NCBI GenBank assembly: GCA_003157225.1
Contig: PMIZ01000450.1
Span: forward strand, 284-5,336
Direction of reading: 5' to 3'
Source of the DNA: Actinomycetota bacterium
GTDB taxonomy: Bacteria > Actinomycetota > Thermoleophilia > RBG-16-64-13
Length of the DNA: 5,053 nt
Shown piece by piece: positions 1 through 4,788 of this stretch. The notes below the pieces were generated by a model. That model made no database searches, had not been told where the DNA came from, and saw nothing but the letters and a program-made list of their open reading frames with translations. Both the position numbers and the translations under genes were made by a program. Within the stretch, counting starts at the first letter, position 1. Every line of letters starts with the position of its first letter.

Positions 1-300
1 CTTGTCGCTTCTCTGGTAGCGCTCGAACATCTGCGTGGAGAACGTGCCTTCGCGGTCCTGGGGGACGAGCAGGTTGAGGTCACCTACCGCGGTGGTGAGC
101 GTGCGGGTCTTGTAGCCGTTGCGGTATCCGGTCCGCTCGCCGGTCCTCTCGTAGGGCTCTGCTCCCAGGTGGTCTGAGATCTCCACCTCGAGGGCCTGCT
201 GGCAGATGAGCTCGAGCAATCCTCTCAGGGGATTGTCATCTGCTGTCGCCAGCACCTCTTGAATCGCCTCGTTCAACGGCATAGTCTTTTTCTTGGCCAT
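1..300 (-). CDS. IS256-family transposase, N-terminal 100 residues (runs off the window)
   Basis: This is the start of a mutator-type (IS256 family) transposase, which catalyses cut-and-paste or copy-out transposition through an RNase-H-fold DDE domain. Only the N-terminal part is visible. After a lysine-rich start (MAKKKTMPL) come a helical segment and, around residues 46-65, the stretch GAEPYERTGERTGYRNGYK. That arginine/glycine-rich motif is highly characteristic of the family. It is followed by VGDLNLLVPQDREGTF, which leads into the region before the catalytic domain; the DDE residues lie outside the window. Two in-frame ATGs occur at 303 and 300. I chose 300 because an AGGAGG at 312-307 lies 6 nt before it and only 3 nt before the other. 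The frame is open to the window edge with no damage, so the gene could be intact. Confidence 0.9.
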   Translation of the reverse strand, partial: MAKKKTMPLNEAIQEVLATADDNPLRGLLELICQQALEVEISDHLGAEPYERTGERTGYRNGYKTRTLTTAVGDLNLLVPQDREGTFSTQMFERYQRSDK

Positions 301-413: not shown

Positions 414-706
414 CAGCAAGCAGGAGCACGACATTCTTGGACTTTGTTGAATGAGGAAGAGGATAACGGATGCTTCCTTACGATTTAGTTTGAGTGACAC
501 GAAGGATTTCAGGCAATGGGCAACGCCAACAAACGCAGACAAGTTCATGCCGCCCGAATCGATCTCCGCTGACAACATATACATCGCCGAGAAGAGATGA
601 TGTGTCTGTCTGTCGTCGCACCGGTGGAAGTCTCTCCTCAACCTCAATACCTGTTAGATGATTGATGGAATGATTTAGGCTAGATACGCGATATGATGCT
701 GCGATA
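414..706. other. Gene-poor flank between the IS256 end and the IS21 element
   Basis: About 290 bp of less GC-rich DNA with no convincing complete gene and no tRNA or rRNA signature. The only coding-like signal is the short frame at 451-600. The longer minus-strand open frames here have no recognisable protein character. Confidence 0.5.
451..600 (+). pseudogene. Short open frame of 49 codons, possible remnant of a gene
   Basis: The frame runs from ATG at 451 to TGA at 598-600 and encodes MRKRITDASLRF, then SLSDTKDFRQWATPTNADKF, then MPPESISADNIYIAEKR. From about residue 13 on, the composition looks protein-like and third codon positions are mostly G or C. I do not recognise a family. No Shine-Dalgarno sequence precedes the ATG, and a TGA lies immediately upstream in frame. 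A 3' fragment of a broken gene, cut by neighbouring insertions, is more likely than an intact small gene. It could also be a chance frame. Confidence 0.25.
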
Positions 707-712
707 CAGGTG
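707..712. repeat. Left copy of the probable IS21 target-site duplication (CAGGTG)
   Basis: CAGGTG here is matched by CAGGTG at 4783-4788. The match extends to 8 bp (ACAGGTGT, 706-713 and 4782-4789) because the outer bases also match the element's terminal T and A. Both copies abut similar inverted termini. The family makes short duplications of this order. Confidence 0.6.
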
Positions 713-761
713 TGATCAGCGACACCTGTAAGAACCCAAGTCAAGATAGCTCTCTCCTGAT

Positions 762-780
762 ACCACCTTCCGGTGGTTTT
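762..780 (+). terminator. Hairpin with T-run (possible plus-strand terminator; GNRA hairpin on the other strand)
   Basis: ACCACC-TTCC-GGTGGT followed by TTT has the outline of a weak intrinsic terminator on the plus strand, though nothing obvious is transcribed into it. On the minus strand the same DNA gives a 6-bp stem capped by a GGAA tetraloop, which better suits a 3' element of the IS110 structured RNA. Confidence 0.3.
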
Positions 781-825
781 GCATGATGCGAATATCTTGC
801 TTGGGAGGACGCCCGACCCGGTCCA

Positions 826-852
826 TGACCAAAGCGCTTCTCACCTCGTGAC
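826..852 (-). repeat. Hairpin module, copy 2, in the IS110 non-coding region
   Basis: On the plus strand this matches 1113-1139 at 19 of 27 positions, sharing TGACC, AAGCGCTT and a closing GAC. On the minus strand it folds as AGGTG-AGAAG-CGCTT (846-832). The two copies differ at many positions yet both keep a stem at the same place. Confidence 0.5.
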
Positions 853-1112
853 TACCTTCTCCCTACGGTTTCCCGGACCACTAAAACCTTCTGGTACGTT
901 TCGGTTTCTAACCCATACACCTGTCTGAGACTCGAAGTCCCGTTACTACAGGAACCCGGCCTATGGAATAATCGGGCTTGTGTGATCCCGGGGCCTATCC
1001 AATTAGTGATACTCACACCTTCCTTTACGGAAGGTCTGGCATATGTCGCTTGAATGAGACTTCCCGGGACCACCCGGTCCGGTCGAAGGGAGATAAGTGT
1101 ACCGCCACCGGT

Positions 1113-1139
1113 TGACCGAAGCGCTTTTAGCACCACGAC
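1113..1139 (-). repeat. Hairpin module, copy 1, in the IS110 non-coding region
   Basis: This is the partner of 826-852. On the minus strand it folds as GGTGCT-AAA-AGCGCT (1134-1120) inside the larger GCCGCCGG/CCGGTGGC stem. It begins about 26 nt after the transposase stop codon. Confidence 0.5.
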
Positions 1140-1165
1140 ACCGGCGGCATCCCCTCAAGAGGCGG

Positions 1166-2203
1166 TCAAGCCCTTGGACCTAGAAACATCTCGTCTGAAT
1201 AATCTGTGCCATCTCTCCACATCGCGTTCATCATTGAAAGTATCTTTCGCTGGGTTGAAAGCCTTGCGTGGTCGTAGTCTCCGCAGTTCCTGTACGACCT
1301 TTTGAGAAAGATCTGTATCCCGTTGGTCTTCTTTGTCCTCATCGCGCCGTCGAACGCCTTCCTGGACAGGTCCTTCATCGCGCTTACACCGGCCTTGTCC
1401 AGGTACTGCCTTCCAAGTGAGACCCCGTCGCTGCTCCTGTTCACGATCCCCAGGCACGAGAACTTCCACAACCCCCTCTTGTTGAAGCGGTTCGGGTCGA
1501 GCACGTATGCCACGAACCTCGCGGCCAGCACCGGTCCAACTCCCGGGATCCTCTTGAAGTGCTCTATCACCGGAAAGTTGAGGGACATCCTCATCACCTG
1601 TGATCCTGCTTGTACCTTCTTCCTGGAGAGGTAATCGAGCAGGTCGTACTCCTGGACGAGGATCTCCTGCATGAACGGGTCCTTCAATCTACCAACGTGC
1701 TCGATCCTTCCCTCTGCGCCGTACACCCGCTTCCCTTCCGTAAACACCCCCTGGGCGCGGAACAATGCCTTTACCTGCACCATCTGCCTTGCCGCCCTCT
1801 TTGTCGCCTCCTCGTAGCGCTGCACAGATATCTTGAATGCGGCCATCTCCTCACGCGGGGTGTGGTAGATGGTGGCGAAGCTGTTGATCCTCAGGAGCTC
1901 AGACAGCTTATCCGCATCCACCTTGTCACTCTTGCTTTTTCCCTTTGCCACCCATGCGTTTCTCTTGGGATCGCAGACGATCACTTCCCGCGCATGGGGA
2001 AGCAGAGTTCTGTAGGCCCACCCGGCAAGCTCTCCTTCCTCGAACAGCACCCTCACGTCCTCCCCGTACCTCGTAACGCTCTCTACGAGGCTTTCGCGGC
2101 TGGTCCTGAATGTCAGCCTTTCAACGACCTCACCGTTTTCGCCTCTTGCGGCAACCGCCGTCACCTTTGACCCGACATCCATTCCAACATACACTGTTTC
2201 CAC
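1166..2203 (-). CDS. IS110-family transposase (DEDD/serine recombinase), full length
   Basis: A 345-residue RNA-guided DNA recombinase of the IS110 family. The N-terminal RuvC-like DEDD domain shows the first aspartate in YVGMDVGSK (D9), an acidic pair in VLFEEGELAG (E55/E56) and the paired aspartates in KSDKVDADKL (D93, D96). A long helical linker follows (about 115-205). The C-terminal Transposase_20 domain begins with the helix-hairpin-helix-like IPGVGPVLAARFVAYVLDPNRF (219-240) and continues through LGIVNRSSDG (251-260), where S257/S258 are the candidates for the catalytic serine. The tail HARLSTQRKILSMMNAMWRDG is typical of the family. The start is GTG at 2203: AAGGGAGG at 2217-2210 lies 6 nt upstream. 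Length and motifs look intact. A structured leader precedes it and a long non-coding region follows it. Confidence 0.93.
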   Translation of the reverse strand: METVYVGMDVGSKVTAVAARGENGEVVERLTFRTSRESLVESVTRYGEDVRVLFEEGELAGWAYRTLLPHAREVIVCDPKRNAWVAKGKSKSDKVDADKLSELLRINSFATIYHTPREEMAAFKISVQRYEEATKRAARQMVQVKALFRAQGVFTEGKRVYGAEGRIEHVGRLKDPFMQEILVQEYDLLDYLSRKKVQAGSQVMRMSLNFPVIEHFKRIPGVGPVLAARFVAYVLDPNRFNKRGLWKFSCLGIVNRSSDGVSLGRQYLDKAGVSAMKDLSRKAFDGAMRTKKTNGIQIFLKRSYRNCGDYDHARLSTQRKILSMMNAMWRDGTDYSDEMFLGPRA

Positions 2204-2261
2204 CGGACGCCTCCCTTCTCGGTCGATTTGCTATACATACCGAGTATATAGAGGGCGTCCG
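2204..2261 (-). promoter_or_regulatory. Nested inverted-repeat leader of the IS110 transposase, containing its RBS
   Basis: CGGACGCC (minus 2261-2254) is the exact complement of GGCGTCCG (minus 2211-2204), which ends right at the GTG start. Nested inside, CTCGGT (2244-2239) pairs with ACCGAG (2223-2218). The Shine-Dalgarno AAGGGAGG (2217-2210) lies between the stems, and its last two bases are in the outer stem, so folding could limit translation initiation. A TATACT matching a -10 box sits at 2248-2243 with no good -35 in place. If that -10 is used, transcripts would begin inside the outer stem and escape it, while read-through transcripts would fold. Confidence 0.5.
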
Positions 2262-2271
2262 TTTCTTATCA

Positions 2272-2318
2272 TTCCAATTAAAACTCCCGTCCGGCGACAA
2301 TTGAAATTCCCGTTCCGG
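2272..2318 (+). repeat. Tandem terminal repeats at the IS21 left end
   Basis: Two related units at about 23-bp period: CCAATTAAAACTCCCGTCCG from 2274 and ACAATTGAAATTCCCGTTCC from 2297. The second contains CGACAATTGAAATTCCC (2295-2311), perfectly inverted at 4736-4752. A weaker third unit, CGACACCTGTAAGAACCC, lies at 720-737 on the far side of the IS110 insertion. Multiple terminal repeats that bind the transposase are a known feature of IS21 elements. Confidence 0.75.
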
Positions 2319-2349
2319 GCAGCGGGATAGACTAACCAAGTTCCTGTTT

Positions 2350-2356
2350 AAGGAGG
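2350..2356 (+). promoter_or_regulatory. Ribosome binding site of istA
   Basis: AAGGAGG ends 8 nt before the ATG at 2365 and fixes that start. Confidence 0.75.
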
Positions 2357-2364
2357 GGGCTTGG

Positions 2365-3840
2365 ATGGTCACGGACAGACAGGTGAGATTGCTTATGTCG
2401 CTGACAAAGACGGAGAAGACTTTCAAGGCCGCGGCCGCCAAGGCCGGCATGGACGAGAAGACCGCCCGCAAGTGGCGGGACTCAGGGGATCTGCCGAGCC
2501 AGATCCAGAAACAGCGATCGGGAAGAACCAGAGAAGACCCGTTCTCCGATGTCTGGGGCGACATCAGAGCCCTCTTGGAAGTGAACCCTGGCCTCGAGGC
2601 CAAGACGATCTTCGCACACCTGCAAGCTGAGTACCCTGGGAAATTCGCCGACGGGCAGCTGCGGACATTGCAGAGGCGCGTGAAGACCTGGAGGTGCACC
2701 GAGGGTCCGCCGCGTGAGGTCTTCTTCCCGCAGGACCACAAGCCCGGAAGGCTCGCAGAATCAGACTTCACCCACATGACCAGGCTCGGCGTAACGATAC
2801 GCGGAGTGCCATTCAACCACCTGATCTTCCACTTCGTCCTGACCTTCTCGAGCTGGGAGACCGGCACCATCTGCTTTTCCGAGAGCTTCGAGTCTCTCGC
2901 CGAAGGTCTGCAGAACGCTCTCTGGGAACTGGGCGGCACGCCGGAGACGCATCGCACCGACCGGCTCTCGACTGCGGTCCACAAGGTGGAGAACCCCGAG
3001 GAGTTCACCAGGAGGTACCGGGGGTTGCTGGACCACTACGGGATCAAGCCTCACGCTACCAACCCGGCCTCCCCCAACGAGAACGGCGACGTGGAGAGCC
3101 TGCACAGAAACTTCAAGAGGGCCGTCGACCAGACGCTGATGATGCGCGGATCGCGCGACTTTGCCTACCGCGCCGACTACGAGGCCTTCCTCAAGGCCAC
3201 CTTCACCCAGCTCAACGCCGGCAGGAGGGCACGATTCGAAGAGGAACTCAAGGTCTTGCACCGACTGCCCTTGAAGCGTCTGGAGTCCTTCACCCGCGAG
3301 ACAGTCCGGGTGGGCCCGGGCTCGACGGTGCGCGTCAAGCACAACACCTACTCGGTCAACAGCCGCCTCATCGGCGAGTCGGTCGAGGCCAGGGTCTACA
3401 TAGACTACATAGACATCTGGTACGCGCAGAAACGCGTCGAGAGACTGCCGCGCCTCAGGGGATCGGGAAAGCACTACATCAACTACCGCCACATCATCGA
3501 CTGGCTGGTTCGAAAGCCCGGCGCCTTCGCCGACTACCGCTACCGTGAAGACCTGTTCCCCTCATCCACCTTCCGGATCGCCTACGACGTGCTCAAGAAG
3601 CGCTCGGAGGCAAGAGCCGACCGCGAGTACCTGAAGATCCTTTTCCTTGCTGCTCGGGAGACCGAGTCCGGGGTGGAGGCCGCTCTCGCCGCTCTCGTCG
3701 ACAACGGCGGGCAGATCTCGGCCGAGGCCGTGGAGGAAACGCTCCTGAGCGCCGCCGTGCTCGAGTCCCCCAGGGAGATCATCGTCGCCGACGTCGACCT
3801 CTCTACCTACGATGCCCTCCTCGAGGAGGTGGGTGTCTGA
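2365..3840 (+). CDS. istA: IS21-family transposase IstA
   Basis: A 491-residue DDE transposase that cuts and joins the element's ends, acting with IstB. The N-terminal region (about 3-45, TDRQVRLLMSLTKTEKTF then KAAAAKAGMDEKTARKW) is a helix-turn-helix domain for end binding. The RNase-H-fold core shows D134 (ESDFTHM), D199 (HRTDRLS) and E244 (SPNENGDVESLH), a complete catalytic triad in the family's usual contexts. The C-terminal part from about 310 includes a beta-rich stretch with VRVKHNTYSVNSRLIGE (322-338), common in IstA proteins. It overlaps istB by one base (TGATG), and the GAGGAGGT at its 3' end serves istB. No frameshift or missing key residue is seen. The IS110 insertion lies upstream of the coding region and leaves only about 85 bp between it and the ATG. 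Confidence 0.95.
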   Translation: MVTDRQVRLLMSLTKTEKTFKAAAAKAGMDEKTARKWRDSGDLPSQIQKQRSGRTREDPFSDVWGDIRALLEVNPGLEAKTIFAHLQAEYPGKFADGQLRTLQRRVKTWRCTEGPPREVFFPQDHKPGRLAESDFTHMTRLGVTIRGVPFNHLIFHFVLTFSSWETGTICFSESFESLAEGLQNALWELGGTPETHRTDRLSTAVHKVENPEEFTRRYRGLLDHYGIKPHATNPASPNENGDVESLHRNFKRAVDQTLMMRGSRDFAYRADYEAFLKATFTQLNAGRRARFEEELKVLHRLPLKRLESFTRETVRVGPGSTVRVKHNTYSVNSRLIGESVEARVYIDYIDIWYAQKRVERLPRLRGSGKHYINYRHIIDWLVRKPGAFADYRYREDLFPSSTFRIAYDVLKKRSEARADREYLKILFLAARETESGVEAALAALVDNGGQISAEAVEETLLSAAVLESPREIIVADVDLSTYDALLEEVGV

Positions 3841-4616
3841 TGGCGACAAAGACAGAGGTCAACGCCCAGCTGACCGATCGCTTGAGGGAACTCCACCTGC
3901 CCGCGTTCCGCGACTGCTTCTCAGAGGAGGCCGAGCGGGCACGCAAGGCAACATCATCCTACGAGCGCTACCTGCTCGAGCTCGCCGAGCGCGAAGCAGA
4001 GGCAAGGCGACAACACAGGATCGAGCGCCTGCTCCGCCAATCGAAGCTGCCCCCGGGAAAGACGTTCGAGACGTTCGACCTCAAGCGCCTGCCGGCGCGT
4101 GTCGCCTCCCAGGTGAACGTGCTAGCCGAGGGTACGTTCCTGGGCAACGCGGAGAACGTCCTCGCCTTCGGCAATCCGGGCAGCGGCAAGACGCACCTCT
4201 TGAGTGCCATCGGCCACGAGCTGGTCTACCAGGGTCACCGGGTGCTGTTCGTTGCATGCAGCCTGTTGGTCCAGGACCTCCTCATTGCCAAGAGGGAGCT
4301 GCGCCTGGCCAAGGCCTTGAAGAAACTCTCGAAGTTCGAGGCTCTGGTGATCGACGACATCGGCTACGTACAGCACGATCGCGAAGAGATGGAAGTTCTC
4401 TTCACGCTTCTCGCGGATCGCTACGAGAGGACCAGCGTGATGCTCACCTCGAACCTGCCGTTCTCCAAGTGGGAGCTCATCTTCAAGGACCCGATGACCA
4501 CCGCGGCCGCCATCGACCGCCTGGTCCACCACTCGGTGATACTGGAACTGAACCTCTCCAGCTACAGGCTGGAGCATTCAAAGGGAAAGAAGGCGAAGGC
4601 AGAAGGAAAGGGATAG
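3840..4616 (+). CDS. istB: IS21-family helper ATPase IstB
   Basis: A 258-residue AAA+ ATPase, DnaC/DnaA-related, that loads on target DNA and stimulates IstA. An N-terminal helical segment (1-70, rich in arginine and glutamate) precedes the nucleotide-binding fold. Walker A is GNPGSGKT (111-118), Walker B is ALVIDDIGY (168-176), and the sensor-1 region is MLTSNLPF (201-208). The C-terminal AAAIDRLVHHSVILELN (222-238) holds R227, in the position of the arginine finger/sensor 2 of the family. Length and motif order are normal, and the tail is a lysine-rich KGKKAKAEGKG. The start ATG at 3840 overlaps the istA stop, with GAGGAGGT ending 9 nt upstream, so translation is probably coupled to istA. 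Confidence 0.95.
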   Translation: MATKTEVNAQLTDRLRELHLPAFRDCFSEEAERARKATSSYERYLLELAEREAEARRQHRIERLLRQSKLPPGKTFETFDLKRLPARVASQVNVLAEGTFLGNAENVLAFGNPGSGKTHLLSAIGHELVYQGHRVLFVACSLLVQDLLIAKRELRLAKALKKLSKFEALVIDDIGYVQHDREEMEVLFTLLADRYERTSVMLTSNLPFSKWELIFKDPMTTAAAIDRLVHHSVILELNLSSYRLEHSKGKKAKAEGKG

Positions 4617-4624
4617 GTGTTTGT

Positions 4625-4668
4625 GGTCATACAGAAGTGCACCATTTATGGTCAAGTGAAAATGCACC
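4625..4668 (+). repeat. Tandem repeat downstream of istB (IS21 right end, inner repeats)
   Basis: GGTCATACAGAAGTGCACC (4625-4643) and GGTCAAGTGAAAATGCACC (4650-4668) agree at 13 of 19 positions with a 25-bp period. They lie just after the istB stop and inside the inferred right terminus, where IS21 elements carry internal transposase-binding repeats. Confidence 0.5.
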
Positions 4669-4684
4669 GAGCAAAGCAAGGTCG

Positions 4685-4702
4685 CCCACCCCTAGGGGTG
4701 GG
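4685..4702. other. 18-bp perfect palindrome between istB and the IS21 right end
   Basis: CCCACCCCTAGGGGTGGG is fully self-complementary. As RNA it would give a very stable 7-bp G/C-rich stem with a CTAG loop. No T-run follows, so a classical intrinsic terminator is not supported. It may still block transcription leaving or entering the element, or serve as a protein site. Confidence 0.6.
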
Positions 4703-4735
4703 GCAGGTAGGGAAGGAAAGGCAGCCATAGGAAAA

Positions 4736-4752
4736 GGGAATTTCAATTGTCG
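4736..4752 (-). repeat. IS21 right-end inverted repeat
   Basis: On the minus strand this reads CGACAATTGAAATTCCC, identical over 17 bp to 2295-2311. It lies 30 bp inside the inferred right terminus. Confidence 0.85.
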
Positions 4753-4782
4753 TTGTGGGGAAGAACTAGTTGACGCTGAGCA

Positions 4783-4788
4783 CAGGTG
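4783..4788. repeat. Right copy of the probable IS21 target-site duplication (CAGGTG)
   Basis: Identical to 707-712 and directly outside the inferred CA-3' end of the element. Confidence 0.6.

Follow-up and report, generated by a model that had tools for sequence, protein, structure and literature searches.

A predicted guide RNA in the 3' non-coding end of an IS1111-type IS110-family element inserted into an IS21-family element

The window, by which we mean the whole 5,053-nt stretch of Actinomycetota DNA analysed here (contig PMIZ01000450.1), contains one insertion sequence inside another, and its first 291 nt (1-291, minus strand) hold the start of an IS256/mutator-family transposase truncated by the window edge. 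The main features are:

725..2275, minus strand: whole IS1111-type element, bounded by its two GG core copies (1549 bp if a single copy is counted)
1166..2203, minus strand: gene for a DEDD transposase/recombinase of 345 aa (Pfam DEDD_Tnp_IS110 and Transposase_20)
762..777, minus strand: GNRA-capped hairpin ahead of the right end (ACCACC-GGAA-GGTGGT, read from 777 to 762)
713..4782, plus strand: IS21-family element with istA (2365-3840) and istB (3840-4616), recognised from Pfam and NCBIfam matches, its ends and its duplication

The ends of the IS21-family element, TGATCAGCGACACC and TGCTCAGCGTCAAC, are identical at 11 of 14 positions, and a 6-bp duplication (CAGGTG at 707-712 and 4783-4788) bounds it. 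The IS1111-type element is inserted 12 bp inside its left tip, so that the left inverted repeat of the IS21-family element is the insertion target. Because it is split in this way, the IS21-family element is probably immobilised.

Both the DEDD RuvC-like domain (PF01548) and the C-terminal Transposase_20 domain (PF02371) of the IS1111-type transposase score above the Pfam cut-offs, and the NCBIfam model transpos_IS110 gives it 120 bits, below the cut-off of 140. Six residues are invariant in 25 aligned sequences (D9, E55, E58, D93, D96 and S258), and we take these to be the catalytic residues. A profile of transposase relatives matches IS621 (8wt6) in both domains with an E-value of 2.7e-11. 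The right-end GG core of the element lies at 726-725, which is 439 nt past the transposase stop codon, compared to only about 70 nt of non-coding sequence upstream of the gene.

A contig scan found three related loci (L001-L003), in two Actinomycetota MAGs and one Planctomycetota MAG, whose transposases are 44-50% identical. In the phylum of L001, clade members were found in 5 of 396 genomes at E <= 1e-60, and a search of its class returned the identical five (among 31 genomes). L003's own genome was the sole positive both in its class (1/9) and, at E <= 1e-70, in its phylum (1/392). A looser limit of 1e-25 gave 14 of 396 genomes and added two clade copies, one of them split (into L011 and L020, which represent opposite ends of a single decayed element) and the other lying where its contig stops (L013). 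The element is present once per genome, apart from a single genome with two copies. Absence in these searches of about 400 genomes is not exhaustive, because just the best few candidates per genome were scored (five with the protein profile, seven with the RNA model). A protein search found 233 relatives; among the best 120 of the 233, about four-fifths come from genomes whose longest contig is no more than 3 kb. No homologue was confirmed in viral contigs among 2 and 105 candidate stretches, plasmids and phages searched by DNA gave no match, and a protein search of plasmids gave 335 records, of which the best 30 are all less than 30% identical. A degenerate motif scan of viral contigs was discarded: it picked out seven stretches, and there was a transposase relative in none of them.

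Six elements with both ends on one locus measure 1513-1549 bp from core to core. Inverted repeats occur near the ends of all seven elements compared, with best matches from 6/6 to 10/11 (6-11 bp, counted without a shuffled control); by the same count the window element's own repeat is 6/6, which is shorter than the usual 11-13 bp. In the counts that follow, L009 (left end only) contributes to the leader alone, L010 (a decayed copy that lacks the distal part and in which no left end was found) to RNA-core and right-side counts only, and L013 (cut by the contig end) to RNA-core and right-side counts without a left end. The decayed copy L010 (2705-2766) has lost about 140 nt of its distal 3' region and has kept both guide loops.

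The original prediction pointed to 762-1165 as a large structured region lacking a convincing gene, and this description proved to be correct. On the minus strand the region has a predicted folding energy of -172.3 kcal/mol, compared to -140.1 +/- 5.6 in 100 dinucleotide shuffles (z = -5.76; 0/100 as low). When we scanned 48 overlapping 400-nt windows on both strands, with 20 shuffles for each, 801-1200 minus ranked first (z = -4.53), followed by 1-400 minus (z = -2.89) and 801-1200 plus (z = -2.23); the median was -0.15. On the transposase strand, the largest open reading frame confined to the region is 852-1136, of 94 aa, and it matches nothing in NCBIfam. Throughout the window, all Rfam families score below their gathering thresholds, and searching 300-1300 against Rfam up to E = 5 returned nothing other than a single sub-threshold CRISPR-repeat match. 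That match (698-723, plus strand, 20.7 bits against a cut-off of 37) lies over the IS21 tip and is taken as chance. The stem-loop with a GNRA tetraloop named in the same prediction is present at 777-762, and by eye a hairpin occupies the equivalent place in aligned relatives. The 'nested two-stem arrangement' assigned to 952-920 corresponds to the upper stem of the donor loop described below plus part of the right-end guide. The limit placed at 762 was wrong, since the conserved unit continues to the right-end core at 725-727.

An alignment of eight 3' regions, extending from the stop codon as far as the right-end core, has 62% mean column identity, and an RNA core of 150-169 nt (1081-913 in the window) aligns in nine elements. 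Within the 3' region we recognise the following features:

913..1081, minus strand: core of the guide (bridge/seek) RNA, comprising the target and donor loops (nine-element alignment, covariance model and covarying stems)
986..1069, minus strand: target-loop base stem TCCCGGG/CCCGGGA, assigned manually, and all that it encloses
1044..1050, minus strand: right-target guide AGCGACA, complement of the right flank TGTCGCT
999..1005, minus strand: left-target guide and core TAATTGG, same letters as the left flank and core
965..973, minus strand: left-end (donor) guide GATTATTCC, complement of the left-end GG-AATGAT; imperfect, 5/7 in the window
918..924, minus strand: right-end (donor) guide ACAGGTG, a copy of the right end and core; 3/5 pre-core positions in the window

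RNAalifold's first consensus was dropped, as it paired the guide segments with each other, and manually assigned stems were used instead. Across the nine elements, double changes occur in three of the seven pairs of the target-loop base stem and, in the donor-loop base stem, likewise assigned manually, in two of four; the covarying stems include G-U pairs. The apex stems also vary on both sides, with a register fitted sequence by sequence (the target-loop apex entry is missing for L003 and L011, and the donor-loop apex entry for L003), and because these registers were chosen per sequence we rely on the base stems only. A candidate helix closing the whole region (GCTTG/GCTTT with CAAGC/AAAGC) was rejected: each element's own pairs were not more stable than swapped ones. 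The covariance model of the core, R1, scores the window, which is part of the model, at 112.1 bits; the window and 9 of 27 other loci score 111-151 bits, two of the nine being one copy, and sequences used to build R1 match it by construction. Over 396 genomes R1 found seven copies in six genomes, all at known RNA cores 3' of transposases; it revealed no new copies, nor any lacking a nearby transposase. Conservation and covariation among related elements, which the original prediction had proposed looking for, are thus both found, and the alignment stops at the right-end core.

Nine elements contain four segments in a fixed order: the first complements the right flank, the second copies the left flank with GG, the third complements the left end and the fourth copies the right end. 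We compared the fit of each segment to its own element with its fit to the other elements, in a register that was picked after inspection of the data and that the swapped controls share. Right-flank guides match their own flanks at 8.0 of 9 positions on average compared to 5.1 when swapped (P = 4e-5, n = 9 elements), and left-flank guides at 5.0 compared to 3.1 of 7 (P = 0.0018, n = 7). For the ends, the left-end guides give 5.1 compared to 3.9 of 7 (P = 0.0095, n = 7) and the right-end guides 3.7 compared to 2.75 of 5 (P = 0.0007, n = 9). The elements are few and partly related, and these permutation P values ignore relatedness; with one representative of the L008-like elements, the right-flank test gives P = 0.00137, or about 1/720, which is the minimum for six elements.

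Exact right-flank runs of 8-10 nt are present in L001, L002, L008, L010, L011 and L013. In L001, L002 and L008 the right-side target differs, and the guide loop is changed to match. Independently of register, the window's own 7-nt matches are not significant by themselves (P = 0.135 each) and L003 and L007 give no right-flank match; combining six representatives by Fisher's method gives 0.0029. Some guides fit poorly or fit another element better. The left-flank guide of L003 matches 2/7, the right-flank guide of L007 matches 5/9 of its own flank yet 6 positions against four L008-like flanks, and the left-flank guide of L001 matches 7/7 on the flank of L002 compared to 4/7 on its own. The window's left end is matched at 5/7 by its own guide compared to 6/7 by the guides of L007 and L008, and its right end at 3/5 compared to 4/5 by the guide of L011. 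In L012, whose transposase was matched only at an E-value of 1e-36, the corresponding places are occupied by a right-flank guide of 8 nt and a right-end guide of 9 nt; by eye, its left flank has no clear match. This distant element of the IS110 family (L012, 1366-2910) thus shares the guide layout.

In the window, the right-target guide matches the IS21 inverted repeat itself. A reconstructed empty target of the L008 type was absent from all five genomes searched (0/5), and the L001/L002 target pattern, which is too degenerate to discriminate, had 77 matches in two genomes compared to 58 for a reversed control. In the relatives L053, L054, L049 and L050 the insertion is just past the end of an unrelated open reading frame, with no other insertion sequence visible. 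In L002, inspection by eye suggests that a GC-rich hairpin could form in the right flank.

These results support the guide-RNA reading of the original prediction: a conserved, covarying 3' region contains guide segments that track each element's own flanks and ends. Very probably, this is where an IS110-family element of the IS1111 type has its non-coding 3' end, encoding a predicted guide RNA. By Siddiquee et al. (2024, PMC11187229), IS1111-type elements are described as having a longer non-coding region downstream of tnp and subterminal inverted repeats that are usually 11-13 bp, and a guide order, opposite to that of IS110, in which the complement of the top strand precedes the match to the bottom strand. 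The window element has the IS1111 order, with the top-strand complement ahead of the bottom-strand match. It resembles ISEc11 and other IS1111-type elements in its downstream non-coding region, guide order, predicted junction promoter (below) and candidate subterminal inverted repeats, and differs from them in its 439-nt region, its repeats of 6-11 bp, its GG core and a transposase below the NCBIfam IS110 cut-off (120 vs 140 bits). The same paper gives 154 nt for the long seekRNA of ISEc11, and reports that deleting bp 1170-1374 of this 1443-bp element abolished circles and that a 270-bp fragment supplied in trans restored them. The longer or distinct architecture that had been suggested for the window holds only in part: the guide core of 169 nt is ordinary (150-169 nt in the clade), whereas the 439-nt conserved region, of which the part outside the core may belong to the mature RNA, is longer than that of ISEc11. 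Like the IS621 bridge RNA described by Durrant et al. (2024, PMC11208160), the RNA has separate target and donor loops and two guide halves around a short core; the IS621 RNA is in the left end, whereas that of the window element is in the right end. Their paper also places the donor-binding bases of many IS1111 orthologues in a multiloop. We assign the RNA to the IS1111 seek/bridge kind because of its place, its guide order, its two loops and the junction promoter.

We weighed three other explanations. The strong folding and the hairpin near the right end would also suit a terminator or an RNA-stability structure, and the region might do no more than end the transposase mRNA, as a terminator or structured 3' untranslated region without guide function; this leaves unexplained both the segments that correspond to each element's own flanks and ends and their constant places in the aligned RNA core, and we consider it very unlikely. 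Slightly less likely again is that the region acts as DNA and not as RNA, providing a recombination substrate, subterminal inverted repeats and protein-binding sites. The 6-11 bp inverted repeats near both ends and the inverted recurrence of a left-end segment at 807-814 would fit such a role, but of the two strands it is the transposase strand that folds more strongly (z = -4.5 vs -2.2), the stems covary with G-U pairs included, and the target guides are placed in predicted loops at a distance of more than 270 nt from the right end.

We give almost no weight to the possibility that this is an element of the IS110 type whose bridge RNA lies in the left end and whose 3' region is accessory. Although the profile of the transposase clade matches the IS110-type enzyme IS621 in both domains, there are only about 70 bp between the left-end core and the start codon, and these hold the -10 half and the ribosome-site hairpin described below; moreover, the guide order is that of IS1111 and all four guide segments are downstream of tnp.

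On the guide-RNA reading, a junction promoter would form when the ends of the excised element join, and transcription would start there. The RNA from the non-coding end would form two loops, one for the target and one for the donor. Of the two guide segments in the target loop, the upstream one would pair with the right flank (top strand) and the downstream one with the left flank and GG core (bottom strand); the donor loop would likewise pair with the element's left end and right end. By analogy with IS621 and ISEc11, the RNA-loaded transposase may then recombine circle and target at GG. The features concerned with the junction and the leader are:

739..744, minus strand: -35 half of the junction promoter, TTGACT, in the right end, with 17-nt spacing to the -10 half
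2265..2270, minus strand: -10 half of the junction promoter, GATAAG, in the left end, spaced across the joined ends
2253..2260, minus strand: leader arm GGACGCCC, approximately where transcription from the junction promoter would start
2204..2211, minus strand: GGCGTCCG, beside the start codon and ribosome-binding site, with a run of 8 in its pairing to the leader arm
807..814, minus strand: distal segment GGGCGTCC, complementary to the leader arm at 2253-2260

When the ends are joined with a single GG, TTGAC(T/C), 17 nt and a -10-like hexamer are found in 7 of 7 elements by sequence, TTGAC having been among the conserved letters used to find right ends. The -10 halves are GATAAG, TATAAA, AATAAA, GATGAA and GATAAA, several of them weak. 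The spacing of this putative promoter agrees with the ends inferred from flanks and guides.

The leader of the window element has a predicted fold of -27.2 kcal/mol, and in 8 of 8 leaders, examined with no shuffled control, a hairpin is predicted in which the segment adjacent to the start codon is paired with a 5' arm. The distal 3' region can form 7-14 contiguous Watson-Crick pairs with the leader arm in 6 of 7 elements. In the decayed L011/L020 element, 13 of 14 positions pair, yet the longest run is 4 because of an A.C mismatch at the fifth position. The distal segment and the leader change together in L007 and L008, and the complementarity is greater within elements than in swapped combinations (P = 0.003, n = 7 elements), which is weak as covariation because the seven elements amount to two related groups. 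In the distant element L012, the leader (GGTCTCC), the ribosome-site arm (GGAGACC) and the distal copy (GGAGACC) have all changed together, with a leader/ribosome-site match of 10 bp. L014 has a 9-nt match to the leader-arm complement (GAGGCCCGA) at about 2639, in the middle of the region and not distal.

As a general IS110 feature, this complementarity was rejected: in 12 distant elements the mean run was 6.75 within elements compared to 5.86 when swapped, little above background, and the nine plasmid elements alone had a mean of 6.3. The panel of 12 was made up of 9 of 10 plasmid regions and 3 of 9 other distant loci (L012, L014 and L019), leaving out L065, where no transposase is annotated, and L015-L018, L021 and L022; it leans, if anything, towards the idea, because L012 and L014 had been examined beforehand.

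We tentatively raise the possibility, which we think rather unlikely, that control of the transposase is a second role of the guide RNA, with the segment at 807-814, a copy of the ribosome-site arm, pairing with the leader at 2253-2260. Only transcripts that span the whole guide, or free guide RNA, would open the ribosome-binding site. There is a precedent for an RNA that opens a leader in ISPpu9, where, according to Gomez-Garcia et al. (2021, PMC8450116), an element-encoded RNA pairing with the leader affects translation. The two elements are alike in a leader structure that likely covers the ribosome-binding site, and they differ in that the proposed opener in ISPpu9 is an antisense RNA encoded over the leader, whereas the candidate in the window is a 3' segment of the same strand. 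The complementarity of the distal segment to the leader arm is the most novel part of this analysis, and we infer its function. Among the titles and abstract openings given by literature searches that covered few subscription papers or preprints, none describes an IS1111-type guide RNA that pairs with its own transposase leader, or the clade itself.

Other IS1111 members have been linked to transposon ends: Partridge and Hall are said to have found in 2003 that IS4321 and IS5075 target the inverted repeats of Tn21. Like these, the window element inserts in the terminal inverted repeat of another transposable element, the target being an IS21-family end and not the Tn21 repeats. Its target, an IS21 inverted repeat, can be read from sequence. 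The predicted RNA extends programmable bridge/seek RNAs to a rare clade represented by three MAGs of two phyla, by further genomes and by metagenomic proteins, and the clade offers natural examples of retargeting. The covariance model and guide positions are now open to experimental trial. If the leader complementarity is functional, it would link guide supply to transposase translation, and, were the guide RNA indeed to control its transposase, the enzyme would be made only when the element has a guide to load.
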